IMG/VR virus record: IMGVR_UViG_3300007229_000086 | Span: 1 to 23,870 of that record | Reading direction: 5' to 3' (one strand) | Length of the DNA stretch: 23,870 bases | From: a virus | In this document: one piece after another, positions 2,957-23,870 of the stretch | Numbering within the stretch: the first letter of the stretch is position 1 | How the letters are laid out: the number at the start of each line of letters is the position of its first letter | Program-made: the position numbers and the translations under genes | Notes under the pieces: model-generated | What the model saw: the letters and a program-made list of their open reading frames with translations, nothing else | What the model was told of the DNA's origin: nothing | Databases searched by the model: none

Positions 2957-3301
2957 ATGCCCTCCTACTTCGATAGCCTACAAAAGCGCGTGTTTACCCT
3001 TGCTAAAGGCCGTTTCGGCTTTACGGCGAGTTACACAAGCGCCGACGGGCTGGCGACGTGGGAGGGCATCGTTTTGTTTGGCAACCCGTCTGAAATGTAC
3101 AAGCTGGCCGGTATGCCCTTTGAGCCTAACCGGTATACGATGGAGTACCAAAGCGGCGACTTACCCGGACTTTTGGAACGCGTACACGCGCGCCAAACCG
3201 ACGAAAAGGTAACGGTCGACGGTGTGGAATATTACGTTACTTCGGTCGACGCGGTACACGACGGCGAAACGTTCCGCGCAAACTTAACCCCGTTCCTATA
3301 A
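2957..3301 (+). CDS. Probable head-tail joining protein
   Basis: A 114-aa protein placed between the capsid cement gene and the Gp37-family gene, where phages of this layout encode a small connector. It shows alternating beta strands (EGIVLFGNPSEMYKLAG, DEKVTVDGVEYYVTSVDAVH, TFRANLTPFL) like the short beta-barrel connectors of the lambda gpFII/Gifsy-2 type. Those sit under the portal and receive the tail. The stop codon overlaps the next start (TAATG at 3299-3303), so the pair is translationally coupled. The functional call rests mainly on position and size; no diagnostic motif is visible. Confidence 0.5.
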   Translation: MPSYFDSLQKRVFTLAKGRFGFTASYTSADGLATWEGIVLFGNPSEMYKLAGMPFEPNRYTMEYQSGDLPGLLERVHARQTDEKVTVDGVEYYVTSVDAVHDGETFRANLTPFL

Positions 3302-3846
3302 TGGCTACCACTTCGCTAAGTTACGACAGGTTAGAAGATGCGATAGCCGCAAGGCTTAGCGCCCTCATACCCCTGGGCTATGAGGTTAAGACGTTGCCGG
3401 ACACCGAAGCGGAATTGCAGCGCCCGGCGGGCTTTAAGCCCCGCGTTACGGTCGCCTATTCCGGTAGCAACTTCGGCGATGGGGCCGATAGCAAAAACCC
3501 GGCCGTCCACCTTACCGGCGCGGTCGCTCAGACAGAATTTTGCACTCTCGATGTAGTTTTCGAGGCGCAACGCCTGCGCGGCAATCGCGGGTACCACGAA
3601 GCCCTCCGCTTAGCTATGCGGCTACTTTTAGGATTTAAGCCGATCGGCTGGTCGAAATTAATGTTTCGCACCAACGAATTTAAGAACCATGCGGACGGCA
3701 TTTTCGTTTTTCACCTTGTCGTTACCTGCTACCGCTTTATAATGGAGGCCACCGACGACCAGGGCGCACCGTTGAACCTCGACGGTACGACGGGCCAACC
3801 CGCCGAACCTTTGTTAACCGACGCTAATTTTACAATCGCGTGCTAG
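3301..3846 (+). CDS. Gp37-family protein (Mu-like), likely tail terminator/completion
   Basis: A 181-aa protein that resembles the Gp37 family of Mu-like phages. It has an N-terminal helix (YDRLEDAIAARLSALIP), a basic strand segment, a central TEFCTLDVVFEAQRLRGNRG stretch with a helical RLAMRLLLGFKP, and a C-terminal hydrophobic strand IFVFHLVVTCYRF. Gp37 genes sit at the head-tail junction and are thought to help complete the connector or tail terminator. ATG at 3301 overlaps the previous stop by one base. The end overlaps the next start (GTG at 3840) by seven bases. Role is inferred from family and location. Confidence 0.65.
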   Translation: MATTSLSYDRLEDAIAARLSALIPLGYEVKTLPDTEAELQRPAGFKPRVTVAYSGSNFGDGADSKNPAVHLTGAVAQTEFCTLDVVFEAQRLRGNRGYHEALRLAMRLLLGFKPIGWSKLMFRTNEFKNHADGIFVFHLVVTCYRFIMEATDDQGAPLNLDGTTGQPAEPLLTDANFTIAC

Positions 3847-4331
3847 AAAACGTAAAAATATCGGAATTGGCGGAGGTCGTAGAGTACGAAAACCAACGCT
3901 TTTTTTGTTCGCTGCCAAGCGGAGAAATTGCCGTCCGATCGTTTGCAGAATTGACGGGCGCGGAAAGCCTTATTTACATCGACGGCGGAGCGACAAAGAC
4001 GACCTTAGCGGCCGATTTAATCGACCGGCTTAGCGGTACGCCTTACGTCGCCGCCACGGGCTTAGAGGGTCCTACGTTTACCCTGGCAGCCTACCCCGGA
4101 AACGTTTTTCAACGGGTCGGCGATCTGGAGGTAGACAACCAACCAAGCGAAAACGCATTTTTCCCCCTGGCCGGTACCGGCGCGGTTTTGGGCTTCGGCT
4201 CAGATCGCGTTTATTCGTTACTTGCCACGGCGCGAAAAATACAATATAATAACCTGGCGGTTAGCCTTGCGCCCGTGGTGCAAGCGGGCGTCGGGTACTG
4301 GTCAATAAGCGGAACTTTCCGCGTAAGTTAA
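3840..4331 (+). CDS. Unrecognised protein at the head/fibre boundary
   Basis: A 163-aa protein that I do not recognise. It begins with GTG overlapping the end of the Gp37-family gene. The N-terminal third reads VKISELAEVVEYENQRFFCS, then SGEIAVRSFAELTG. The remainder is Gly/Ala-rich and beta-prone (TLAAYPGNVFQRVGD, then AVLGFGSDRVYSLLATARKI). The close packing with both neighbours shows that it belongs to the late operon, and the next two genes look fibre-like, so it may be an adaptor or fibre-associated protein. No catalytic motif, signal peptide or membrane segment is visible. Existence as a gene is well supported by coupling and length; the role is a guess. Confidence 0.7.
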   Translation: MLENVKISELAEVVEYENQRFFCSLPSGEIAVRSFAELTGAESLIYIDGGATKTTLAADLIDRLSGTPYVAATGLEGPTFTLAAYPGNVFQRVGDLEVDNQPSENAFFPLAGTGAVLGFGSDRVYSLLATARKIQYNNLAVSLAPVVQAGVGYWSISGTFRVS

Positions 4332-4338
4332 TACCACA

Positions 4339-5052
4339 ATGGCGACACAAACAAGGACCGTTTTAAAATCGTATTTCAATACCGGCGACTTTCCGACGGA
4401 AACGCAATTTGCCGATTTTATTGATAGTTACCGCCACATTGTAGACGATGCAATCGCGATCGCCGACGTTACCGGCCTAGCCGCTGCGCTCGCCTCCGCC
4501 ACGGTCGCCGATGGCGATAAGGGCGACATTATCGTAAGCGGTACCGGCGCGGTTTGGACCCTGGAGGCGACCGGCGTAAGCGCCGGAACTTACAACCAGG
4601 TAACGGTCGGATTAGACGGCCGCGTAACGGCCGGAGCCAACACCGGGGCGACCACGTTGGTAACCCTTAACGCGGGGTCAGAAACGACGCTCCGCGTACG
4701 CTACGAGGGCGCCACAGCGCCGTTATTTACGAAGAGCAGCGACGGCAACTATTTACTGGTCAGCGGCGCCGCTTCGCGCGTGTTGTCGTTCGTGTGGAGG
4801 GGCACGCCTGGCGGAGGGGTCGACCCAGCGACCTATACCGGCGGAGCGGTTAACCTGCTAATACGCGACGCGGACGGCGAACAACTTTACGGCGTTTACG
4901 AAGTTATAAGCGAAACGACCGGACAGGACGCGCGGAACATTCCAGGCGTTTTACTTTCGCAGACGGCGCCAACGGCGGGCGACACAAATTTAAACTTACC
5001 CAACGCCGCAAGCATTAGCGGCGGTTTTATAATCATCGGAAAAATAGCCTAA
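4339..5052 (+). CDS. Fibre-like structural protein
   Basis: A 237-aa protein with an N-terminal segment (VLKSYFNTGDFPTETQFADF, then SYRHIVDDAI) of a type often seen at the start of fibre-like proteins in Bacteroidota phages. A Gly/Thr-rich repetitive beta region follows (GDIIVSGTGAVWTLEATGVS, GTYNQVTVGLDGRVTAGA), then a C-terminal beta domain ending FIIIGKIA. The phrases GTYNQVTVGLDGRVTAG here and GITPATYTNANVTFDADGRA in the next protein are variants of one motif, so the two probably share a shaft architecture. No signal peptide is present, unlike its neighbour. It likely forms part of the adsorption apparatus. Confidence 0.6.
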   Translation: MATQTRTVLKSYFNTGDFPTETQFADFIDSYRHIVDDAIAIADVTGLAAALASATVADGDKGDIIVSGTGAVWTLEATGVSAGTYNQVTVGLDGRVTAGANTGATTLVTLNAGSETTLRVRYEGATAPLFTKSSDGNYLLVSGAASRVLSFVWRGTPGGGVDPATYTGGAVNLLIRDADGEQLYGVYEVISETTGQDARNIPGVLLSQTAPTAGDTNLNLPNAASISGGFIIIGKIA

Positions 5053-5054
5053 TT

Positions 5055-7763
5055 ATGCGCCACATTATAACCCTAATTACCCTTTTCTGCGCGTTCAGCT
5101 TATCCGCACAGATCACCGGCGAAGTCGACGACGTTTTCGTTTTGGGTGCGCAGTTTGGCGCGTCTACTACCTTAACTGATAGCACTTACCAAGTAAGCAG
5201 CACCCACCTATTTAGCCAACTTAACAACACCTTTTTACCCACGGGTATAGCGGTAGGCGATATTTTAGTCGACCCAAATAAGCGCCGATTTCGCGTTAAG
5301 GTCGTCGTTTCGACTACTTTCTTAACGTCCACTTTGCAAGTGGTCCGCTTACAGGCGCTAAACTTAGCGCCGTCCGGCGTCGGGTTTATCTATCGCCCGA
5401 CAGGTACAAACGATTTTATCCCTCGCGAGGTTGCCGGAATTATTAGCCCCGCGCTGGAAGCAATGATAGACAACCATAACGCGTACAATGCGGCCAATTT
5501 TGTAGGCGGGTCTGGCGGCGTGGGCGATGTAACAGCGGCGATACTGAACGATTCGATGCAAGTCGTTCGGGATAGTTTGGCGGCGGTGCGGGCGGATATT
5601 AGCACGGGTGCGGGCGAAAGCACGACGGTTTCAGATACGCCAACGATCGACCTTACCCTAACGGGTTCGGACATTACAGGTGATGTTGTGGCGGGGAGTA
5701 TTGGTGCAACGCAATTGGCAAGCACAGGGATAACACCAGCCACCTACACAAACGCCAATGTGACGTTTGATGCTGACGGGCGGGCAACGGCAGCGAGTAA
5801 TGGCACGGGTGGCGGTGTTGCAACAGTCGTAGCGGGAACAGGAATAAGCGTAAACGCTACCGACCCTGCTAATCCTGTTGTGACCAATACAGCACCAGAT
5901 CAGACTGTTGCTATCACTGGCGCGGGCAGTGTGGCGGTTACGGGCACTTACCCGAATTTTGTGGCGACTGGTAGTGGGGTAACGGGTACAGGAACGACTA
6001 ACACATTGCCTATGTTCACAGCCGCGACGACTTTAGGTGATAGCCCTGTTCAGTTTTTAACCGACAGAATAAAAATAAACGCGGATTACTTTCAAGTAAC
6101 AGGTAACACCCTTGAAAATAGAGCAGCTACGGCTAATTTCGGTGAGTTGTTTTTTAATACTACCAACTATACATTAGAAATGTACACGGGGACAACTTGG
6201 AAGCCTTTTTTAGACTACCAAGGCGCGGCGGGTAAAATTCCAGTTTGGACGGACAATAATCTTGGTTACAGTAATAATTTCCACTATAATACATCGAATG
6301 GCAGATTCGGCGTTGGGTTTTCTTCTGCTGCTGCGTACCAAGTTGAGTTCCGTAATGATCTTGGCGTAACATTAGGAGAAAAAGGTGTTTTTTGGGTTGG
6401 GAGAACAGACACAAGCAACCCAGGGTTAATTGCAGGGTATTACGCAAACGGGTCATCTGTTTCTTTTCCTATAATACGCGCGGGCGGTTCTGGTAACACG
6501 GGTTTTGCGCTGGGTGGGGCGACTTCAAATTACAATATATTTATAAGCTCTACCAATAAACGCACAGGATTTGATAATCTCGCGCCTAATTACAAGGTAG
6601 ATATTGGCGGTACAGACGCAGCAATAAGGCTCAACCCGCACAACACGACACTAACGGGCGCGGAAGGGCTGTTATTTGCTAACAGCGTAACCAAGGGGCT
6701 AAAAGGGCATGATGGAACGTCGTTTTACAGGATTCCGAAGTTTACGGACGCAGCGCCAGCCAACGGGCAAATTCCTGTTTTCAACTCTACGAGTGGAATG
6801 TACACGGCTACTACCCCAGCCTACCTAACAGCCGAAGTAGACGGAAGCGTGACTAATGAGTTACCCACATACACCAGTAGCGGCACAGGCCCGGTAAGCC
6901 CTAAAGAGGGTGACGTATGGCTGAACACCACGACCAACTTTCGACAAGTATATCTTGGCGGCGCATACCGTAATTTTCTAACAGGTAGTGCCAATAATGG
7001 AACTATTAGCGAAGTATCACTAGTTGATCTTAACGAGGCGTATTTTGTTGACCAAGACGGTGACGGAGCAGAATACCTTATAACTGAAAACGCGGGAACT
7101 GGAAACCTTGAAATTACAGCACCAGGGCAAATCACCAACCCCTATATCTTTTCCGATACGGGCGCGGGTGCCAACGACGTACAAAGAGGCTCCAACATAA
7201 CCACCGCACTAGCAAACCGACCAATAGCCACCACAGTAACCGCAAACCGACCCGCCATGTGGTCAGGCACCGGAAACGAGTTAACAGCATTCCCCCTGGA
7301 AAGCACACTCGGATTAGTTCGACAAACACAAACAACTGCGTTTGAGTTGGCAAGGGGGACGACAGGGGAAGCGCCAGCAGCCACAACAGCCGGGCGGCTA
7401 AGGTGGAACACCACAAAAGTGAAACCGGAAATTTCGGACGGCTCGGCTTACCGTCAATTGGCCTATACGAATGAGTACGGGCTCGAAACATTCATTATAA
7501 ACGCAACGTCAACAATCGCCCCCATTAAAAACATCTTTGTGTACACTGATGCAATAGTTAGCAGTGAGACCGTGACAATAGACGTGGCTAACTTGGTGGG
7601 GGGAACGATAATGAAGGTTTGGGCCGAAGGAACGATTATACTAGATAGTTCAGCGGGAAGTTTTGTTGCTTCGCCCGGTGCATCCGGAACCGCAACGGTA
7701 ACACTTACCGACCAAGTAGCCGAATATGTTTGGGCATTTGGTTCTTGGTTTAAAACAAATTAA
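5055..7763 (+). CDS. Large fibre-like protein with N-terminal signal peptide
   Basis: A 902-aa protein starting two bases after the previous stop. Residues 1-18 form a classical Sec signal peptide: a short charged start, a hydrophobic core (IITLITLFCAFSLSA) and a probable cleavage at SA|Q. The mature part is Thr/Gly/Asn-rich and repetitive, with shaft-like phrases (TPATYTNANVTFDADGRA, NAASN-like loops) and several GKIPVWTDNN / NGQIPVFNST modules, as in long beta-structured fibres. Base composition shifts along the gene: the middle, about 6,050-6,650, is visibly richer in A+T and uses different codons from the ends, which suggests mosaic exchange. A phage fibre would normally assemble in the cytoplasm, so export is unexpected. 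It could be displayed on or released from the infected cell, or the hydrophobic start could act otherwise. Confidence 0.65.
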   Translation: MRHIITLITLFCAFSLSAQITGEVDDVFVLGAQFGASTTLTDSTYQVSSTHLFSQLNNTFLPTGIAVGDILVDPNKRRFRVKVVVSTTFLTSTLQVVRLQALNLAPSGVGFIYRPTGTNDFIPREVAGIISPALEAMIDNHNAYNAANFVGGSGGVGDVTAAILNDSMQVVRDSLAAVRADISTGAGESTTVSDTPTIDLTLTGSDITGDVVAGSIGATQLASTGITPATYTNANVTFDADGRATAASNGTGGGVATVVAGTGISVNATDPANPVVTNTAPDQTVAITGAGSVAVTGTYPNFVATGSGVTGTGTTNTLPMFTAATTLGDSPVQFLTDRIKINADYFQVTGNTLENRAATANFGELFFNTTNYTLEMYTGTTWKPFLDYQGAAGKIPVWTDNNLGYSNNFHYNTSNGRFGVGFSSAAAYQVEFRNDLGVTLGEKGVFWVGRTDTSNPGLIAGYYANGSSVSFPIIRAGGSGNTGFALGGATSNYNIFISSTNKRTGFDNLAPNYKVDIGGTDAAIRLNPHNTTLTGAEGLLFANSVTKGLKGHDGTSFYRIPKFTDAAPANGQIPVFNSTSGMYTATTPAYLTAEVDGSVTNELPTYTSSGTGPVSPKEGDVWLNTTTNFRQVYLGGAYRNFLTGSANNGTISEVSLVDLNEAYFVDQDGDGAEYLITENAGTGNLEITAPGQITNPYIFSDTGAGANDVQRGSNITTALANRPIATTVTANRPAMWSGTGNELTAFPLESTLGLVRQTQTTAFELARGTTGEAPAATTAGRLRWNTTKVKPEISDGSAYRQLAYTNEYGLETFIINATSTIAPIKNIFVYTDAIVSSETVTIDVANLVGGTIMKVWAEGTIILDSSAGSFVASPGASGTATVTLTDQVAEYVWAFGSWFKTN

Positions 7764-7779
7764 TTTAAAAATAAACATT

Positions 7780-8448
7780 ATGAAAAAGTACTTTTTTTTA
7801 TCGGCGTTAATGCTTTGTATCTTTTTCACCAGCGCGCAGGAAATTATTTTCGAAAGTAGCGCGTATTTCCCTTACCAAGATTCCCTTTTCACATACCGTA
7901 CGATTACGGTAACAAATACGGGGATAGAGGGCGTAAACGATACGTCTGTTGTATGGTCCGCCCCTACCGACACCCTCGGGATTGCGCAGCAAATTGAGGT
8001 GTCAGCGATTAACAGCACTAACATGGCGGTCGCAAGATTTCGGAACGGGATATCTTTTAGAAACGTCTTGGTAAACTACTTGGCGCAGAAAACGCTGTTA
8101 GCTGCGCTTGGGATTGACCTAGATGCGCGTATGGTTGCGCGTTACGGGGCAAACGTGGCGGGTCGTTACCGAGTGTTCAGAACCGACGGAACGAACTTTT
8201 TTGTCGACGTAGCCGCGCACCCGACGAACCCGGCGGTAATGCGCGCGACGGGAACCGCAAATGAGGGTAATTTTAACGTGTTAATTTACGGTCGCTGGAT
8301 GCTGCGAATTGCTTTACCTGCGCCGGACAACATTACCTATTTGATACACGACAGCGACAGCACCGACCGCCCCATATTGCGTCACCCCTCGTTCTGGATT
8401 CCTAATGTAATGGTAACCTCTAAAAATACCAGAATGGTGAAACTGTAA
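7780..8448 (+). CDS. Exported protein of unknown function
   Basis: A 222-aa protein that I do not recognise. ATG at 7780 is chosen because it gives MKKYFFLSALMLCIFFTSAQ, a clear Sec signal peptide with likely cleavage after A19. The in-frame start 54 bases upstream would bury that signal and overlap the previous gene. The Cys in the core is not in a lipobox position, so a lipoprotein is unlikely. The mature chain is beta-prone with many aromatic residues and ends in a basic region. It lies 16 bases after the large fibre-like gene and is probably co-transcribed, so the two exported products may act together outside the cytoplasmic membrane. Confidence 0.6.
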   Translation: MKKYFFLSALMLCIFFTSAQEIIFESSAYFPYQDSLFTYRTITVTNTGIEGVNDTSVVWSAPTDTLGIAQQIEVSAINSTNMAVARFRNGISFRNVLVNYLAQKTLLAALGIDLDARMVARYGANVAGRYRVFRTDGTNFFVDVAAHPTNPAVMRATGTANEGNFNVLIYGRWMLRIALPAPDNITYLIHDSDSTDRPILRHPSFWIPNVMVTSKNTRMVKL

Positions 8449-8454
8449 ACAGCC

Positions 8455-9018
8455 ATGAAAACCTACACCGTAAAGAAAGGGCAATCTAATTTTCGCCCGT
8501 ACGAACCCATCTGGCCGGTTTTCCGGGCCAAAGGTTTTAAGGTAGAATTTGAAGTTGTACCTGGCGGCTGGTCGTCGCCCGCCGATTGGACCGTCGACGG
8601 CGTCCTGGACGCTGACCGGGGCGACTATCAAAAGTTAGCCGGTCTGACTAACTTCTTTTCGGGTAACGGTAGCAATACGGCGTTTACCGGCTTTTTCCCA
8701 GGCGACGAGCCCGAAACGTGGGTCGTCGGCGCTTACGTGAACTACCCAGGCAGCGCGTTTAAGTTTGACCAAAAAAACACTACCGTCGTACGGTCCGGCG
8801 ATACCGGCGCGATCGTTTGCGACTTTAGCGGAGGCAAAGCGCGGTATAAACTTATCGCCGGGTCGACTGTTAAAGAGACATCTTTCGACTTTAAAAAGTC
8901 GCGGATTATGCGCCAGGCGGGTACCTTTGCGGGAGGGTCAAACAACAGCCCAGGCCCGTACGGCGGCGTCGCGATTAAAGACATGGCGGTCCGCATCGGC
9001 TTTAAGGTTACGCGCTAA
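8455..9018 (+). CDS. Unrecognised beta-rich protein
   Basis: A 187-aa protein with no family I can name. It starts MKTYTVKKGQSNF and is rich in Gly, Phe, Asp and Trp, with repeated short strands (FKVEFEVVPGGW, ETWVVGAYVNYPG, DTGAIVCDFSGGKARYKLIAG). This fits a compact all-beta fold such as a receptor-binding or fibre-tip domain. It starts six bases after the exported protein gene and ends just before the promoter-like site at 9055, so it closes the fibre cluster. It has no signal peptide. Function is inferred only from position and composition. Confidence 0.6.
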   Translation: MKTYTVKKGQSNFRPYEPIWPVFRAKGFKVEFEVVPGGWSSPADWTVDGVLDADRGDYQKLAGLTNFFSGNGSNTAFTGFFPGDEPETWVVGAYVNYPGSAFKFDQKNTTVVRSGDTGAIVCDFSGGKARYKLIAGSTVKETSFDFKKSRIMRQAGTFAGGSNNSPGPYGGVAIKDMAVRIGFKVTR

Positions 9019-9054
9019 CCGCCAACACGTACAAGGCCACAAAGTTAAATTTAT

Positions 9055-9062
9055 TATATTTG
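9055..9062 (+). promoter_or_regulatory. Promoter -7 element, TATATTTG
   Basis: TATATTTG matches the Bacteroidota -7 consensus TAnnTTTG and lies in the 61-base gap before the ATG at 9080, about 17 bases upstream of it. No good -33 TTTG is visible, so the promoter may be weak or need an activator. It would allow the coiled-coil membrane protein to be expressed apart from the fibre genes. Confidence 0.45.
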
Positions 9063-9079
9063 TGGCAAAAAATAACCCC

Positions 9080-9460
9080 ATGGAAAACATACGCGACTTA
9101 ATCGCGATTTATGCGGAGTACCAGGCGGAATTTAATATTTTGGCGGGCGCCGTGGCCGTCGCCGTTTTGGCGGGCACGCTAATAGTTTACCGCATCCGCG
9201 GGAGTCATTTACGGCGCGCCCTCGACGAGTGGAACAAGCTATTTGACGACCTTAACACGCGCGTTATGGATTTGTCGCGCGCGTTGATGGAAGTTCGCCA
9301 AGATTTAATATCCGCGCGCGACGAAGCGCAGCGGGCGAAGTTGGATAACGCCCTGCTTACGGAAGAGGTAGCGCGCTTACGGGCCCGCGTGGCGGAATTG
9401 GAGCGGAGAGAAAAGGAACTGGAGGCGGCGTTGAGCGCCGCAAAAGAGGCTATAAAATAA
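9080..9460 (+). CDS. One-TM coiled-coil protein, spanin-like
   Basis: A 126-aa protein. The start at 9080 is preferred over an in-frame open stretch reaching back into the previous gene because it follows the promoter-like site and gives a sensible membrane topology. Residues about 20-38 form one hydrophobic transmembrane helix (ILAGAVAVAVLAGTLIVY), followed by basic residues (RIRGSHLRR). Residues about 45-125 are a long heptad-rich coiled coil (LTEEVARLRARVAELERREK). This architecture is like inner-membrane spanins of the Rz type, which link the two membranes during lysis of Gram-negative hosts, but topology (C-terminus out or in) cannot be read from the sequence. It could also be a membrane anchor for the next protein. 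No partner outer-membrane spanin was recognised beside it. Confidence 0.55.
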   Translation: MENIRDLIAIYAEYQAEFNILAGAVAVAVLAGTLIVYRIRGSHLRRALDEWNKLFDDLNTRVMDLSRALMEVRQDLISARDEAQRAKLDNALLTEEVARLRARVAELERREKELEAALSAAKEAIK

Positions 9461-9467
9461 CACTATA

Positions 9468-10055
9468 ATGGTCGACGGAAACGTTTTGACGGAATTAGAG
9501 CGTACCAAACAAAAATTATCCGACCTAATAGGCGCGGTAGATGGAGTATTGGGCAAACATAACCAAGCAATTTTTTTCACCAAAATAACCTATCCAGATA
9601 TGGACATTAAAGCTAGCAAAGGCGCGACCGTACCGGTGGGCGCTTCGGACGCGCTACCGGTCAACGCCCTGGGCGTCACGTCGTTGAAGCGCGTCATTAC
9701 CTACGTGGGCGCGCAAATCAAAGGCGCGTTCCTGATCGACAGCGACGGCGACGGCAAAAACAGTACGGCGGAATATTTGGCCTATGCGTTTTCCCTTATC
9801 CCGACAATTCCCGGAATTATCCCCGCGCTGCAAAACAGCCAGGCGGAATTTCGCGACCTGACGAACGAAGAGATAACCGAACTTGTCGACCACGTTTTAC
9901 GTACCGACTTTTTGCCCGACGATCGCGACCGGGCGGAGCACTACGTTAAGGCGTTGTTTTACACGCTCAACGTTAGCCGGCTGTTTATCAAATTCAGCGT
10001 GGATTTTTTCGCCGGTAAGGACGTCGTTTTCAACCCTACCGAAGGTTTGATCTAA
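9468..10055 (+). CDS. Unrecognised protein with canonical EF-hand loop
   Basis: A 195-aa protein that I do not recognise. Residues 91-102 read DSDGDGKNSTAE, a complete 12-residue EF-hand/dockerin-type calcium loop with acidic residues at positions 1, 3 and 5, Gly at 6 and Glu at 12. It is followed by a helix (YLAYAFSLIPTIPGIIPAL). The first 35 residues form a helix with an ERTKQKLSDLIGAVDG pattern. The C-terminal half is helical and acidic (TNEEITELVDHVLRTDF). It starts eight bases after the coiled-coil gene and ends just before a strong terminator, so the two are probably one unit. A calcium-dependent structural or lytic-control role is possible but unproven. Confidence 0.6.
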   Translation: MVDGNVLTELERTKQKLSDLIGAVDGVLGKHNQAIFFTKITYPDMDIKASKGATVPVGASDALPVNALGVTSLKRVITYVGAQIKGAFLIDSDGDGKNSTAEYLAYAFSLIPTIPGIIPALQNSQAEFRDLTNEEITELVDHVLRTDFLPDDRDRAEHYVKALFYTLNVSRLFIKFSVDFFAGKDVVFNPTEGLI

Positions 10056-15419: not shown

Positions 15420-15637
15420 TGGATTACATTAAGTACACAACCGAACAGGGCGAACGCTTCGACCAGATCGCGCAAAAACTATTCGGCGAACCCGGACGGT
15501 GGAAGGACGTAATTAACGCGAACCCCACATTGGCGCTGGTTAAAAACTTCGATGCGGGCGTCGTTATCCGGGTGCCTATTTTGCAAACCGCGACGCCTAC
15601 CGGCGTGGCCGCAAACTTACCGCCGTGGAAACGATAA
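15419..15637 (+). CDS. X: Tail protein X, LysM-like
   Basis: A 72-aa protein of the P2 gpX family. The segment IKYTTEQGERFDQIAQKLFG, then WKDVINANPTL and a FDAGVVIRVPIL end is the usual LysM-like layout. In P2-type tails gpX lies between U and D and joins the tube end to the hub, possibly contacting peptidoglycan. It starts in a TAATG overlap with U and ends overlapping the D start by 13 bases. Confidence 0.88.
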   Translation: MDYIKYTTEQGERFDQIAQKLFGEPGRWKDVINANPTLALVKNFDAGVVIRVPILQTATPTGVAANLPPWKR

Positions 15638-16719
15638 CGCCCGAAATTACGATCGTCTACAATAAGCGAAACGTTACGGCCGACCTATTGCCGTACCTGG
15701 CCGCATTTGAATATTTGGACAACGCCACAGGCAAAAGCGACGAAGTGACGATACAACTAGCGGACCCCGCCGGGCTTTTTATTGGTGATTGGTACCCGGA
15801 AAAAGGCGACACGCTGGAAATTTATTTCGGGTTCGTCGGCAACATGGTACCGGCCGGGCTTTTTGAAATTGATCAGATCGAGGTAAGCGGCCAACCGTCG
15901 ACCGTTTCGCTTATGGCGATAGCCGCGCCGACGTCGCGCGCGCTACGTACACGCCGAAGCGTCGCCCACGAAAATAGCAGCTTGCGCAAGATCGCCGAAA
16001 AGGTAGCGGAGCGCAACGGGCTAACCGTTACCGGACAAATCGACGAGGCGCTGGCCGTTCGTCGGGCTACACAAAACCGCGAAACGGATTTATCTTTTTT
16101 GTACAGATTGGCGAGAAAATACGGGTATGGGTTCAACGTTCGCGGCGCGGATTTGGTATTTTATTCGCTTTACGCCTTGGAGGGCGAAGCGGCAAAGAAA
16201 ACGATCGACCTGGCCGACGTGGTAAGTTATGCCTTCCGGGCAAAGACCGCCGCCACGTACAAAAGCGCGCAGCTAAGTTATCACAACCCGGACACCCAGG
16301 AAATAGTCAGCTTTGAAAACGGCGAGGACACCCTGGCGTTTTTCACCGGCGCTTCGGCTACCCTGCCAACGCGAACGGCCGCGCCGGTAAGCGCGCAGCA
16401 GGAGGCGGTATTTTTTGAGAATGGCGAGGACACCCTGGCGTTTTTCACCGGCTCCGCCGATACGCTGCGCGTATACGAAAAGGCCAAAGACCCCGCCACG
16501 GCGGCGGCCGTTACGCGCGCGGCGCTATACGAAAAGAATACGCAAAAGGTGACCGGCGCGCTGGTCGTCGTTGGCGACGTCAATTTATTGGCCGGTAATA
16601 ATATTGAGGTGACCGGCGCCGGTAAGTTTTCCGGCCGGTACCATATCGAAAGCAGCCGCCACACGATCACCCCGGCGGGCGGATATGGGACCAGCCTCGA
16701 AATAAAAAAAGTAGGTTGA
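15625..16719 (+). CDS. D: Tail hub protein, P2 gpD type
   Basis: A 364-aa protein that begins with GTG inside the end of X. It matches late control protein D/tail hub proteins related to VgrG and T4 gp27: an N-terminal DEVTIQLADPAGLFIGDWYP barrel strand, LFEIDQIEVSGQPSTVSLMA, a RTRRSVAHENSSLRKIAEKV helix and a SFLYRLARKYGYGFNVRG segment, then the C-terminal GDVNLLAGNNIEVTGAGKF and HTITPAGGY. The hub forms the trimer-to-hexamer adaptor of the baseplate. Odd feature: a 13-residue motif FENGEDTLAFFTG occurs twice, 34 residues apart, in the domain junction; this insertion is not part of the common family core as I know it. Confidence 0.85.
   Translation: METITPEITIVYNKRNVTADLLPYLAAFEYLDNATGKSDEVTIQLADPAGLFIGDWYPEKGDTLEIYFGFVGNMVPAGLFEIDQIEVSGQPSTVSLMAIAAPTSRALRTRRSVAHENSSLRKIAEKVAERNGLTVTGQIDEALAVRRATQNRETDLSFLYRLARKYGYGFNVRGADLVFYSLYALEGEAAKKTIDLADVVSYAFRAKTAATYKSAQLSYHNPDTQEIVSFENGEDTLAFFTGASATLPTRTAAPVSAQQEAVFFENGEDTLAFFTGSADTLRVYEKAKDPATAAAVTRAALYEKNTQKVTGALVVVGDVNLLAGNNIEVTGAGKFSGRYHIESSRHTITPAGGYGTSLEIKKVG
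16312..16350 (+). repeat. Internal direct repeat in the tail hub gene, copy 1
   Basis: A 39-base segment encoding FENGEDTLAFFTG. Copy 2 begins 102 bases later, in frame, and differs at only two or three bases, so the duplication looks recent or under strong constraint. Confidence 0.85.
16414..16452 (+). repeat. Internal direct repeat in the tail hub gene, copy 2
   Basis: Second copy of the 39-base segment, again encoding FENGEDTLAFFTG. The 34-residue period keeps the reading frame. The spacer between the copies is Thr/Ala/Pro-rich (TLPTRTAAPVSAQQEAV). Confidence 0.85.
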
Positions 16720-19998: not shown

Positions 19999-20883
19999 AT
20001 GGCAAACCTGACAGAAAGCGCAGTTTACGAAGCGGGCATATACCAGTTGGAAACGACCGACCCCGTTATCGGTGGACCGAGCGGAATTTCTAACCTCCAG
20101 GCCAAACAGTTGGCGAACCGCACAAAATACATTTACGATATTTTGGCCGCAGGTGGCGTTGGCGCCGAGGCGCTGGAGTTTTCCGGCGATCTCAACACGC
20201 TAAAGGCGCCCGGCTTTGTGTTGGTGCGCAGCACGGCCACTAACAAACCGATTTCTGGTTTGGGGCATCTTATCGTAACCGGGCGGCAATCCGTGCCGGA
20301 ACTTGCGAACGTGCCGGGTGCGGTACAAATGTTCCTGAGCCAACAGGTCAACCAAATATTTTTCCGGTTCCTTGCGGGCACGACATGGACGGCGTGGTTT
20401 GGCTTGCAGACCACCACGGCCGCCGATACCGCTTCGCAAATGTTCACCGGGATGATCGGATATTTCCCGACAGCAGCAGCGCCAAACGGCTGGCTACCGG
20501 CCAACGGAGCGCAGGTTAGCCGGACCACTTACGCGGCGCTATTCGCCCGCATCGGCACGACGTCCGGCACGGGCAACGGCACGACGACGTTTACCTTACC
20601 GGACCTTCGCGGGTTGTTCGTTCGCGGACTTGACGACGGGCGCGGCATCGACCCGGCGCGCACCCTTGCGACATACCAGCCGCACGTTACCGCGCTCAAA
20701 GCGCATACACACAACTACGACAAAGCGGTCGTTTCGGCGACCCGCTACGTTAACGACCTTGGTGTCGGCAACGGGTCGCCCGTTACGCTCGTAAATTCAT
20801 TCACCCCCACCGCGAGCAGCAGCAGCGCCGAAGTACCGGGCAACCCGGACAACGTAGCTTTACTAGCTTGCATAAAATACTAA
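19999..20883 (+). CDS. H: Tail fibre protein with collar domain, P2 gpH type
   Basis: A 294-aa protein. The N-terminus (NLTESAVYEAGIYQLETTDP, VIGGPSGISNLQAKQLANRT) is the usual start of fibre proteins with short shafts. A phage tail collar domain runs from about residue 150: GMIGYFPTAAAPNGWLPANG, then TTYAALFARIGTT, FTLPDLRGLFVRGLDDGRG and the tip HVTALKAHTHNY. The HxH pair (HTH) is typical of collar-type tips and often binds metal. The end NPDNVALLACIKY is the standard collar terminus. It is the probable receptor-binding fibre. At 294 aa it is much shorter than P2 gpH. Confidence 0.87.
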   Translation: MANLTESAVYEAGIYQLETTDPVIGGPSGISNLQAKQLANRTKYIYDILAAGGVGAEALEFSGDLNTLKAPGFVLVRSTATNKPISGLGHLIVTGRQSVPELANVPGAVQMFLSQQVNQIFFRFLAGTTWTAWFGLQTTTAADTASQMFTGMIGYFPTAAAPNGWLPANGAQVSRTTYAALFARIGTTSGTGNGTTTFTLPDLRGLFVRGLDDGRGIDPARTLATYQPHVTALKAHTHNYDKAVVSATRYVNDLGVGNGSPVTLVNSFTPTASSSSAEVPGNPDNVALLACIKY

Positions 20884-21208: not shown

Positions 21209-21253
21209 ATAGTGGGATTTTTAGTTAAGGAAACGTTAAAATCTGCAAAACGC

Positions 21254-21284
21254 TTGCAATAGTGTAAAGAGCGCCTTATCTTTA
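21254..21284 (+). promoter_or_regulatory. Promoter of the methyltransferase gene
   Basis: A TTG at 21254-21256 and TATCTTTA at 21277-21284 are separated by 20 bases, close to the Bacteroidota -33/-7 layout. The -7 element deviates from TAnnTTTG at the last base. The same two positions with the same 20-base spacer are kept in the second leader copy, which supports the assignment. Confidence 0.55.
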
Positions 21285-21290
21285 CACTAT
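21259..21290. promoter_or_regulatory. Operator-like inverted repeat over the methyltransferase promoter
   Basis: ATAGTGTAAAGA at 21259-21270 is the exact reverse complement of TCTTTACACTAT at 21279-21290, with an eight-base spacer. The 32-base site spans from just after the -33 element through the -7 element, so a dimeric protein bound here would block transcription. Candidate binders are the methyltransferase itself, the phage repressor or the helix-turn-helix protein at 23171. It lacks a T tract and is not a terminator. Confidence 0.6.
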
Positions 21291-21329
21291 CAACTAACAA
21301 AGGCGATAAACGCCGCAAACTTTAAAGAA

Positions 21330-22316
21330 ATGGAAACATTTAAAACGGTAGACTTATTTTCGGGGTGTGGTGGAATGTCTTTAGGGTTCCAAAATGCAGG
21401 ATTTGAAATCCTTGCTGCATTTGATAATTGGAAACCAGCCTTAGAAGTTTACAAAGAAAATTTTGGCCACCCAATTTATGACTTCGATCTTAGTTCGGAT
21501 GAAAGCAAAGATTTTATTAGTGGCTTAAGTCCTAACTTAATAATTGGTGGGCCGCCTTGCCAAGATTTTTCAAGCGCAGGAAAAAGAGATGACACATTAG
21601 GTAGAGCGGATTTAACAATCTCTTATGCTAATATTGTTAGTACTGTAAAGCCTGAAATGTTCGTAATGGAGAATGTTGAAGGAATAAAAAAGAGTAGAAT
21701 TCTAAAAGAAGCAATTCAAATTTTAAGAGGTGCGGGTTATGGCTTAACAATGGAAGTTCTTGATGCAAGTCTATGTGGAGTTCCTCAAGCAAGAAAGCGG
21801 TTTTTTATGATTGGTAGACTAAATGAATCTGATGACTTTCTGATTCCTTATCTTCAAAATAACCTTTCAAAACAGCCAATGACAGTTTATGATTATCTTG
21901 GAGATTCACTTGGGATAGAGCATTATTATAGCCATCCAAGAAGCTACAAAAGACGTGGTGTATTTAGCATCCATGAGCCTAGCGCAACTATTCGTGGAGT
22001 TAACAGACCTATTCCGGCAGGTTACCCAAAACATCCAGGAAACCCAGTTGATGTTTCTGAAAATGTAAGGTCATTAACAACAATCGAACGGAGCTATATT
22101 CAAACATTTCCAAAATCTTTTAAACTTTGCGGAACAAAAACTAATTTAGAACAAGCAATAGGAAATGCTGTACCTGTGAAGTTAGGAGAATATGTTGCAC
22201 AATGTATTGCAGCATATTTAGCTGATAAGGAGGGATATAAGAAAAAAACAATTCTCAAAGCTGCCGAATCCGTGCAAAAAGCATATACAGAGTGTGTGGC
22301 TCGCAACCGAGAGTAG
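21330..22316 (+). CDS. C5-cytosine DNA methyltransferase (orphan)
   Basis: A 328-aa enzyme that transfers a methyl group from S-adenosylmethionine to carbon 5 of cytosine in DNA. All main motifs are present: I (VDLFSGCGGMSLGF, residues 7-20), IV with catalytic Cys77 (GGPPCQDFSSAG), VI (ENVEG, 114-118), VIII (QARKR, 153-157), IX (RSLTTIERSYIQTFP) and X (QAIGNAVPVKLGEYVA). The target recognition region between VIII and IX is about 80-90 residues, so specificity cannot be read. No restriction enzyme gene is beside it; it likely protects phage DNA from host restriction or regulates genes. The gene is clearly richer in A+T than the phage structural genes and uses other codons, a sign of recent transfer. 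It has its own leader, promoter and terminator. Confidence 0.96.
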   Translation: METFKTVDLFSGCGGMSLGFQNAGFEILAAFDNWKPALEVYKENFGHPIYDFDLSSDESKDFISGLSPNLIIGGPPCQDFSSAGKRDDTLGRADLTISYANIVSTVKPEMFVMENVEGIKKSRILKEAIQILRGAGYGLTMEVLDASLCGVPQARKRFFMIGRLNESDDFLIPYLQNNLSKQPMTVYDYLGDSLGIEHYYSHPRSYKRRGVFSIHEPSATIRGVNRPIPAGYPKHPGNPVDVSENVRSLTTIERSYIQTFPKSFKLCGTKTNLEQAIGNAVPVKLGEYVAQCIAAYLADKEGYKKKTILKAAESVQKAYTECVARNRE

Positions 22317-22366: not shown

Positions 22367-22476
22367 AGTTAAGGAAACGTTAAGGTTTGCAAAATGCTTG
22401 ATATAGTGTAAAGTTACCCGTAGATTTGACCTATCAACTAACGAAGGCGATAAACGCCGCAAACTTTAAAGAGATG
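22362..22476 (+). repeat. Duplicated 115-bp leader, copy 2 (before the Cys-His-Asp protein)
   Basis: Gapless partner of 21218-21332, ending with the ATG at 22474. The inverted repeat seen in copy 1 is eroded here: only 7 of 12 arm positions still pair. The -7 element instead becomes a full consensus match. The hairpin GGCG-ATAAA-CGCC recurs at 22446-22458. Confidence 0.9.
22398..22428 (+). promoter_or_regulatory. Promoter of the Cys-His-Asp protein gene
   Basis: TTG at 22398-22400 and TAGATTTG at 22421-22428 (full match to TAnnTTTG) are separated by 20 bases, the same geometry as in leader copy 1. Transcription would start near 22435, giving a leader of about 40 bases. Confidence 0.6.
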
Positions 22477-22797
22477 AATACGATTAATAAATACAATATA
22501 GCCACGTTTGCCGAACGCCTTTTGTCTGAAATGGGTGGTGACGCTTTGGAAATTTGCACTGGCGATTGCGCCACCTTTGCAAAGAAGACGCAAGACCAGT
22601 TTGGCGGCGTAATCAAATACACCCCTTCTTTTGAGCTGCTTGACGAAATTAATGGCCGAGCCCAAGAAGAAAGTACCGAGTTTTTGCGGCGCGACCCTTC
22701 TCACTGCTGGGTAGAGATTGACGGCGTGTTTTTTGACGCTTTTGATACCGATGGCGTGGAAGACGAAAATTACCTGCAATTTGTTGAGAAGGTATAA
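22474..22797 (+). CDS. Small cargo protein with papain/transglutaminase-like Cys-His-Asp pattern
   Basis: A 107-aa protein. ATG 22474 is chosen because it stands exactly where the methyltransferase ATG stands in the other leader copy; a TTG 48 bases upstream in frame lies inside the -7 element and cannot be transcribed from that promoter. Residues 30-36 (GDCATFA, Cys32) followed by 77-90 (HCWVEIDGVFFDAF, His77 and Asp88) form the order Cys, His-x-W-V, D-A that is usual in papain-like and transglutaminase-like folds. At 107 residues it would be among the smallest of such proteins. I do not recognise a specific family; it may be a peptidase, amidase or a catalytically dead relative. Shared leader with the methyltransferase points to co-acquisition or co-regulation. 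Confidence 0.65.
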   Translation: MNTINKYNIATFAERLLSEMGGDALEICTGDCATFAKKTQDQFGGVIKYTPSFELLDEINGRAQEESTEFLRRDPSHCWVEIDGVFFDAFDTDGVEDENYLQFVEKV

Positions 22798-23170: not shown

Positions 23171-23461
23171 ATGACAAAAGCCCAAATAGCCGAAGCCCTG
23201 GCCGCCGTTTACGACCCGCTGGAGGAAATAGACCGGCGCGCGATAGAACTAAACGTAAAAATTACTGACCTTGCGCGCATTAGCGGCGTGCACTATGCGA
23301 CGATCTACCGCTGGTTCCGACAGCCGCCCGCCGCGCTGGAAACAACGCGCCGCATTATTGCCGTCCTGGACTTAATCGAGGCGGAGCAAATTAGAAATCA
23401 TGAAACGAATAATTTACGCCCTGGCGCTAATGTTAGCGTCGGGGAACCTGGCAACGACTAA
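23171..23461 (+). CDS. Small helix-turn-helix protein
   Basis: A 96-aa protein. Residues about 24-62 form a helix-turn-helix of XRE/Cro type: ELNVKITDLARISGVHYATI followed by YRWFRQPPAALETTRRIIAV. The N-terminal helix and the C-terminal ALDLIEAEQ-like helix would complete the small bundle. The last 22 residues are polar and are coded where the lysozyme gene already begins, in another frame. It may regulate late or lysis genes, or the cargo leaders. Its own promoter is close, so autoregulation is possible. Exact target is unknown. Confidence 0.75.
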   Translation: MTKAQIAEALAAVYDPLEEIDRRAIELNVKITDLARISGVHYATIYRWFRQPPAALETTRRIIAVLDLIEAEQIRNHETNNLRPGANVSVGEPGND

Positions 23462-23870
23462 CGCGCCGCTTAACCGCTACGAACTGAGCGCGCCAGAAGC
23501 GATCGACACGACGATCGACGACGCGTTCGACCTGCTTAAAGAGTTGGAAGGCTTCGCGCCGGTCGCAAAGTGGGACGTTAACGCCTGGCGCAACGGCCAC
23601 GGCACCAAGGCCGCCCACCGGGGCGAAGCGATCACCGAAGCGGAGGCGGGCCGAAGGGCGCGCCAAACCTTCGACAAATGCCTGGCGCAACTGCGCGCCG
23701 ATTACCCCGAACTTACCGACCGCGCAGCGGGCGCCCTGGCGTCGATGCTCTATAACGTGGGGTCGTTCGGGCCCGAACTTCGCGCAGCTATCCGCGCCGG
23801 GCACCCCGAAAAAATAGCGCGCATTATGGCGCGTTACGTTAAGGTCGGCGGCGCCGTCAACAAAGGCGTA
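23400..23870 (+). CDS. Endolysin, GH24-type lysozyme with signal peptide (3' end outside window)
   Basis: An open frame of 157 codons that continues past the window edge. ATG at 23400 is preferred because residues 1-22 (MKRIIYALALMLASGNLATT and on) form a signal peptide or signal-anchor: two basic residues, then a hydrophobic core. The catalytic region is LKELEGFAPVAKWD with E50 and D59 nine residues apart, as E11 and D20 in T4 lysozyme, then GHGT with T69. ITEAEAGRRARQTFD and RAAGALASMLYNVGSFG are standard in phage GH24 lysozymes. It would cleave peptidoglycan between N-acetylmuramate and N-acetylglucosamine for lysis. Export by the host Sec system would make it independent of a large-hole holin. 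It overlaps the helix-turn-helix gene by 62 bases in another frame. Confidence 0.85.
   Translation, partial: MKRIIYALALMLASGNLATTNAPLNRYELSAPEAIDTTIDDAFDLLKELEGFAPVAKWDVNAWRNGHGTKAAHRGEAITEAEAGRRARQTFDKCLAQLRADYPELTDRAAGALASMLYNVGSFGPELRAAIRAGHPEKIARIMARYVKVGGAVNKGV

Follow-up and report, generated by a model that had tools for sequence, protein, structure and literature searches.

Two neighboring genes in the window, by which we mean the whole 23,870-nucleotide stretch of viral DNA analyzed here (positions 1 to 23,870 of IMG/VR record IMGVR_UViG_3300007229_000086), encode proteins with a Sec signal peptide whose signal peptidase I (SPI) site is followed directly by glutamine (cleavage after SA, before Q), the arrangement of Bacteroidetes Q-rule SPI substrates. 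On balance, we lean toward the view that the two genes constitute a virion fiber module, the subunits of which would be made as Sec pre-proteins, exported, and added to the particles during or after lysis. For this phage and its host, we infer export, cleavage, virion attachment, and the timing of attachment at or after lysis from sequence.

The 902-amino-acid (aa) precursor (5055..7763, plus strand), a modular protein of fiber-like character, begins 2 nt downstream of the neighboring gene at 4339..5052, and the 222-aa precursor (7780..8448, plus strand) begins 16 nt past the end of the 902-aa gene. Both genes are real, co-directional, and located within the late virion operon. The longest open reading frame (ORF) for the 222-aa gene opens at 7726; as this position falls inside the 902-aa gene and a 68%-identical homolog (L004:94-762) begins at the same residue as ATG 7780, the latter is almost certainly the start. 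Signal peptides were identified with a heuristic based on a positive n-region, a hydrophobic core of 8 to 16 residues, the -3/-1 rule, and Q at +1, which is a hallmark of Bacteroidetes SPI substrates (PMC5837995). Only the 902-aa and 222-aa genes were flagged in the window, the former with MRHIITLITLFCAFSLSA ahead of QITGEV (5055..5108, plus strand; cut before Q19; heuristic score 11.5) and the latter with MKKYFFLSALMLCIFFTSA ahead of QEIIFE (7780..7836, plus strand; cut before Q20; heuristic score 11.9). No Q-type signal peptide was found when the same cutoff was applied to 4,176 Met residues inside ORFs, confirming the initial annotation of two adjacent genes with Sec signal peptides cleaved between SA and Q. 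The Q-rule site, together with retention of the signal peptide in the homologs checked, also argues for the export by the host Sec/SPI route that had been proposed. The mature 902-aa protein (about 92 kDa) and the mature 222-aa protein (203 aa) contain zero Cys residues, and disulfide formation was thus ruled out as a motive for export. A T9SS C-terminal sorting domain is absent from both proteins in Pfam and NCBIfam. A lipobox is likewise absent; Cys12 and Cys13 lie within the hydrophobic core as TLFC and LMLC, and the small residue at -1 is missing. The L004 homolog contains a weak LLAC. No Bacteroidota promoter motif was found for the two genes, with only 2 nt separating them from the upstream gene. 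Neither protein has sequence relatives in the PDB, and there are no direct homologs of either gene among 50,697 named phages.

Profile matches across the window show that it belongs to a contractile-tailed phage whose structural module is P2/Mu-like. A protease-capsid fusion (527-2542; phrog_4523, E = 1e-213) is followed by head-completion genes, the fiber-like block (3840-10055), and the tail sheath (from 10186), after which come the tail tube, tape measure, and baseplate genes. A canonical tail fiber with a Phage Tail Collar domain (19999..20883, plus strand; PF07484, E = 1.2e-20; phrog_3100, E = 1e-37) has no signal peptide and provides an internal contrast to the signal-peptide fiber genes of the same window. 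A 43,762-bp IMG/VR contig (G002) includes the whole window with 100% identity, and the genes scanned on its other arm are of a lytic replication type (DNA polymerase A, VapE-like, SNF2, ssDNA-binding, and DUF2800). No match to a tyrosine integrase (PF00589) was obtained in this 43.7-kb contig, which may be incomplete, as it is linear according to IMG/VR and end repeats were not found. An SD-like motif precedes 1 of the 29 starts in the window phage, a pattern expected for Bacteroidota and unlike that of many relatives, and the host is probably a member of the Bacteroidota. The initial annotation had envisaged decoys or adhesins on the surface of a lysogen, which these features do not support: the genes belong to a late structural operon and are packed too tightly for a promoter of their own, neither the integrase result nor the lytic-type replication genes favor a prophage, and, because the T9SS C-terminal domain and the lipobox are both absent, no established surface-display route is open to the proteins.

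The right arm of the genome contains several copies (76 to 93% identity) of a ~110-bp repeat. Within the window, the copies at 21223-21338 and 22367-22477 flank a putative C5-methyltransferase gene (21330-22316), and further copies lie in G002 at about 3013-3120, 3798-3878, 5021-5104, and 7831-7946. Self-matching revealed a 55-bp direct repeat, FENGEDTLAFFTG, present twice (16312-16366 and 16414-16468) inside a baseplate gene (15625-16719); the baseplate gene of the relative L044 is without the stretch inserted at this repeat. Directly ahead of the sheath, 9080-9460 encodes a candidate spanin- or anchor-like protein of 126 aa, in which an N-terminal transmembrane segment is combined with a long coiled coil; the protein is also present in L049. 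An endolysin-like ORF (23400-23870) is interrupted by the end of the window and continues in G002, and its hydrophobic N terminus, MKRIIYALALMLASGNLATTNA, is possibly a signal-type endolysin leader. Another Q-rule signal-peptide gene (142 aa; MKILFFLCALAACGAVSA ahead of QDYNIYF) lies outside the window in G002 (L006:11035-11520), amid this phage's replication genes. In L046, the closest sheath relative, a transposase-like ORF (3363-4553), judged TnpB-like by eye, lies between the tail tube and tape-measure genes.

Both proteins had been annotated initially as fiber-like, a description that holds for the 902-aa protein and was not established for the 222-aa protein. The 902-aa protein matches phrog_1325 (E = 4.6e-14), phrog_2803 (E = 2e-8), and phrog_25721 (E = 5e-5) via small repeated modules, including GELFFNTTNYTLEMYTGTTW, GDVWLNTTTNFRQVYLGGAYRNFL, and GRLRWNTTKVKPEISDGSAYRQL, encoded at 6078..7463 (plus strand), and is predicted on this basis to be a modular fiber-like protein. 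The repeat region also aligns by BLASTP with gp101 of Cellulophaga phage phi19:1 (E = 4e-4, for one single comparison), and the three PHROG families are common to the 902-aa protein, phi19:1 gp101, and a fiber-like gene in L047. GC3 is 0.57 in the N-terminal part of the 902-aa gene and about 0.47 to 0.53 in the remainder, a drop that suggests a mosaic origin. No relative of the N-domain was found among the analyzed ORFs or named phages, and the confidence of its predicted structure (pLDDT 37) is too low for use.

The 222-aa protein has no match in Pfam or NCBIfam, and its AlphaFold model (pLDDT 53) gave no fold match at an E value of ≤0.001; it is a putative fiber-associated protein, tied to the fibers by position alone. 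Its homolog in L004, a phage whose genome is organized differently, retains a signal peptide before Q. Identity between the two is 70% over the mature part and 47% over the signal peptide, the core sequence of which has diverged with MKKY, hydrophobicity, and Q retained. A search of 395 genomes of the same phylum returned weak partial matches only. The single bacterial-genome match (L010) was rejected, as similarity was confined to the signal peptide of a host peptidase-like protein. Loci L047 and L049 carry signal-peptide proteins of 210 and 230 aa, respectively, upstream of the sheath, in the place of the 222-aa gene; their similarity to the 222-aa protein is not significant, so the position is shared and the proteins are different. 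The fiber-like block ends with a 187-aa protein lacking a signal peptide (8455..9018, plus strand). Directly upstream of the 902-aa gene, the gene at 4339..5052 (plus strand) encodes a 237-aa adaptor-like protein that has no signal peptide and bears the N-terminal motif VLKSYFNTGDFPTETQFADFIDS, which was also found in one crAss-like phage and 25 other viral contigs. In L044, a gene with this motif again lies directly ahead of signal-peptide genes.

Evidence that proteins of this type reach the virion comes from cultured Cellulophaga phages, in whose GenBank entries proteins are marked "annotation based on experimental MS/MS proteomics analysis"; the cleavage state is not given there. Fiber or spike proteins so noted are gp101, gp102 (a pectate lyase), gp103, and gp104 of phi19:1, gp091 to gp094 of phi10:1, and gp085 to gp087 of phi18:3, which belongs to another family. 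All 11 have a signal peptide, with Q at +1 in 10, and the remaining MS/MS-noted proteins translated from these three phages have none. The expectation in the initial annotation that exported proteins would not be virion proteins thereby finds no support, with the reservation that co-purified periplasmic protein may be the source of the MS/MS records. Like the window, phi19:1 and phi10:1 (Assiduviridae) and phi18:3 (Pachyviridae) have consecutive signal-peptide genes in a late operon, three to five compared with two in the window; the Cellulophaga clusters consist of fiber and pectate-lyase genes, each with a signal peptide that mostly follows the Q-rule, placed after the tail genes. The virion types differ, and MS/MS virion records exist on the Cellulophaga side only, the window phage being known from sequence. 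No homologous module of signal peptide plus N-domain was found between the window and phi19:1, phi10:1, or phi18:3, and the likeness is limited to short fiber modules, such as those of PHROGs 1325, 2803, and 25721 in phi19:1 gp101 and the 902-aa protein. By analogy, the window cluster may work like the Cellulophaga exported fiber clusters without being a member of them. Signal peptides were absent from the virion proteins of phi14:2 and phi46:1 and from the fiber-region genes of phi12:1, phi38:1, FCL-2, and B40-8; on phage fiber genes they are widespread and optional, not universal.

Recurrence was examined in about a hundred phage loci gathered with the upstream adaptor motif and sheath as queries. 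Q-rule signal peptides were present in 17 of 588 genes in low-SD phages versus 2 of 525 in high-SD phages, as we grouped the loci, and in related contractile-tailed phages the long proteins bearing them occupy fiber or spike positions. Long spike-like signal-peptide proteins were identified in L063, L067, L071, L073, L075, L077, and L078. In L063 and L077, the two loci read completely, the spike gene is one gene past the baseplate genes, and the L063 spike matches a solved tail fiber (5w5p; E = 1.9e-7). Four proteins encoded directly after the adaptor-like gene of L044 have signal peptides; one is 1,056 aa long and another 92 aa, and the other two, which are adjacent (L044:13547-17877), are a SASA esterase and a protein combining BACON with a Pel9A-type helix. 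A possible SGNH-type esterase without a signal peptide (motif recognized by eye) occupies the fiber position of the window in L048. Sheath-bearing loci in the bacterial genomes G156 and G008 contain no signal-peptide spikes.

Two N-domain queries from which the signal peptide had been removed were also run against viral contigs. A signal peptide was present in all 17 loci recovered with the first query and all nine recovered with the second (26/26), although these are not independent events, as the 17 loci are related and come from one sample and several of the nine are the Cellulophaga phages themselves. In the first group, 16 of the 17 loci scored as Q-type; the exception, L156, has an insertion, and cleavage between AVA and Q is still possible. 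Residues 1 to 62 are 55 to 85% identical in all 21 pairs compared within this group, and the remainder of the protein is without similarity in 15 of the 21. At +1, Q is retained, as are small residues at -1 and -3, while the core sequence drifts, and in L176, where the N-module has been exchanged, a Q-rule signal peptide is still present. A conserved N-module with an exchangeable C-terminal part resembles the pattern of virion-attached receptor-binding proteins, and the signal peptide is here within the conserved part.

In the mechanism we propose, SecYEG would export both pre-proteins into the periplasm, signal peptidase I would cleave after SA, and host glutaminyl cyclase would presumably cap the new N-terminal Gln as pyroglutamate. 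The exported subunits would fold in the periplasm and, because neither a T9SS domain nor a lipobox is present, would remain there until lysis. Lysis would bring them together with particles assembled in the cytoplasm, whereupon the subunits would attach to the virion, free fiber copies being released as a by-product. In vitro, finished P22 heads accept tailspikes added afterward, which makes late attachment biochemically reasonable.

Genuine signal peptides, as indicated by the heuristic and the null of 0/4,176, would equally be carried by free exported factors, namely, periplasmic or extracellular polysaccharide-degrading, decoy, or receptor-blocking proteins that are not virion parts. Such factors would suit the SASA esterase and the BACON plus Pel9A-helix protein of relatives, the domains of which also occur in secreted host enzymes, as well as the separate canonical tail fiber without a signal peptide in the window and the interpretation of Q-rule genes in P. 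gingivalis phages as host-surface modifiers by their authors (PMC10367356). We consider this reading, which is that of the initial annotation, unlikely, as proteins of the same type have an MS/MS virion annotation in phi19:1, phi10:1, and phi18:3, the N-domain is conserved and the C terminus swapped, a T9SS domain is absent, and the genes sit in a late operon.

Cytoplasmic assembly is the rule for tailed phage virions, and the records of relatives annotate virion presence without specifying cleavage. The leader might accordingly be unused, with folding and assembly in the cytoplasm and the uncleaved hydrophobic segment anchoring the virion fiber or forming a membrane-active tip on it; an anchor needs no cleavage site, however, and the persistence of Q at +1 and of small -1 and -3 residues despite core drift renders this improbable. 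We give very little credence to the signal peptide being a functionless leftover from secreted host genes recruited as fibers. The cargo domains BACON, SASA, and Pel9A, of kinds that secreted enzymes of Bacteroidota are known to have, and the higher GC3 of the N-terminal part of the 902-aa gene (0.57, against about 0.47 to 0.53 in the rest) would be in keeping with gene capture, but relics are expected to decay, and the signal peptide was present in 26/26 loci found with signal-free queries, on each of up to five consecutive genes, and in L176 even after exchange of the N-module.

Large proteins with pectin and alginate/chondroitin lyase domains in the flavophages Ingeline and Nekkels bear signal peptides, as remarked in passing by the authors (PMC8776804), with no Q-rule, conserved N-module, or assembly mechanism described. 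Signal-peptide genes of the Porphyromonas gingivalis phages of the proposed Nixviridae follow the Bacteroidetes Q-rule; they were described as genes of unknown function and possible host-envelope modifiers and were not recognized as fibers (PMC10367356). Phage DGR proteins were said to have no detectable signal peptides in the hankyphage DGR paper (PMC6199706). No description of exported virion fibers as a class in double-stranded DNA tailed phages was found in a literature search that left subscription papers mostly outside, nor, within this incomplete coverage, any statement uniting an export signal, a conserved N-module, and virion presence. Ordinary tailspikes and fibers share with the present proteins a conserved N-terminal module and an exchangeable receptor-binding or depolymerase part; they are synthesized and assembled in the cytoplasm and have no signal peptide.

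By analogy with the cultured phages, our results suggest that, in some tailed phages, part of the attachment apparatus is exported first and joins the particle later. We put forward tentatively, as a possibility somewhat short of probable, that in many tailed phages of Bacteroidota, representing several morphotypes, receptor-binding fibers and depolymerase spikes are Sec exported, folded in the periplasm, capped with pyroglutamate, and attached at or after lysis. Export would not be obligatory, as several Bacteroidota phages have fiber genes without signal peptides. In the textbook view, tailed phages assemble entirely in the cytoplasm, and a conserved Q-rule export signal on receptor-binding fibers recorded in virions breaks this rule. 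Such an export signal would also bear on the recognition of receptor-binding proteins in Bacteroidota phages, where signal-peptide genes are easily misfiled as morons or as secreted proteins of a host-like kind, and the Q-rule, as a phylum-level mark, would be useful for linking phages with Bacteroidota hosts.
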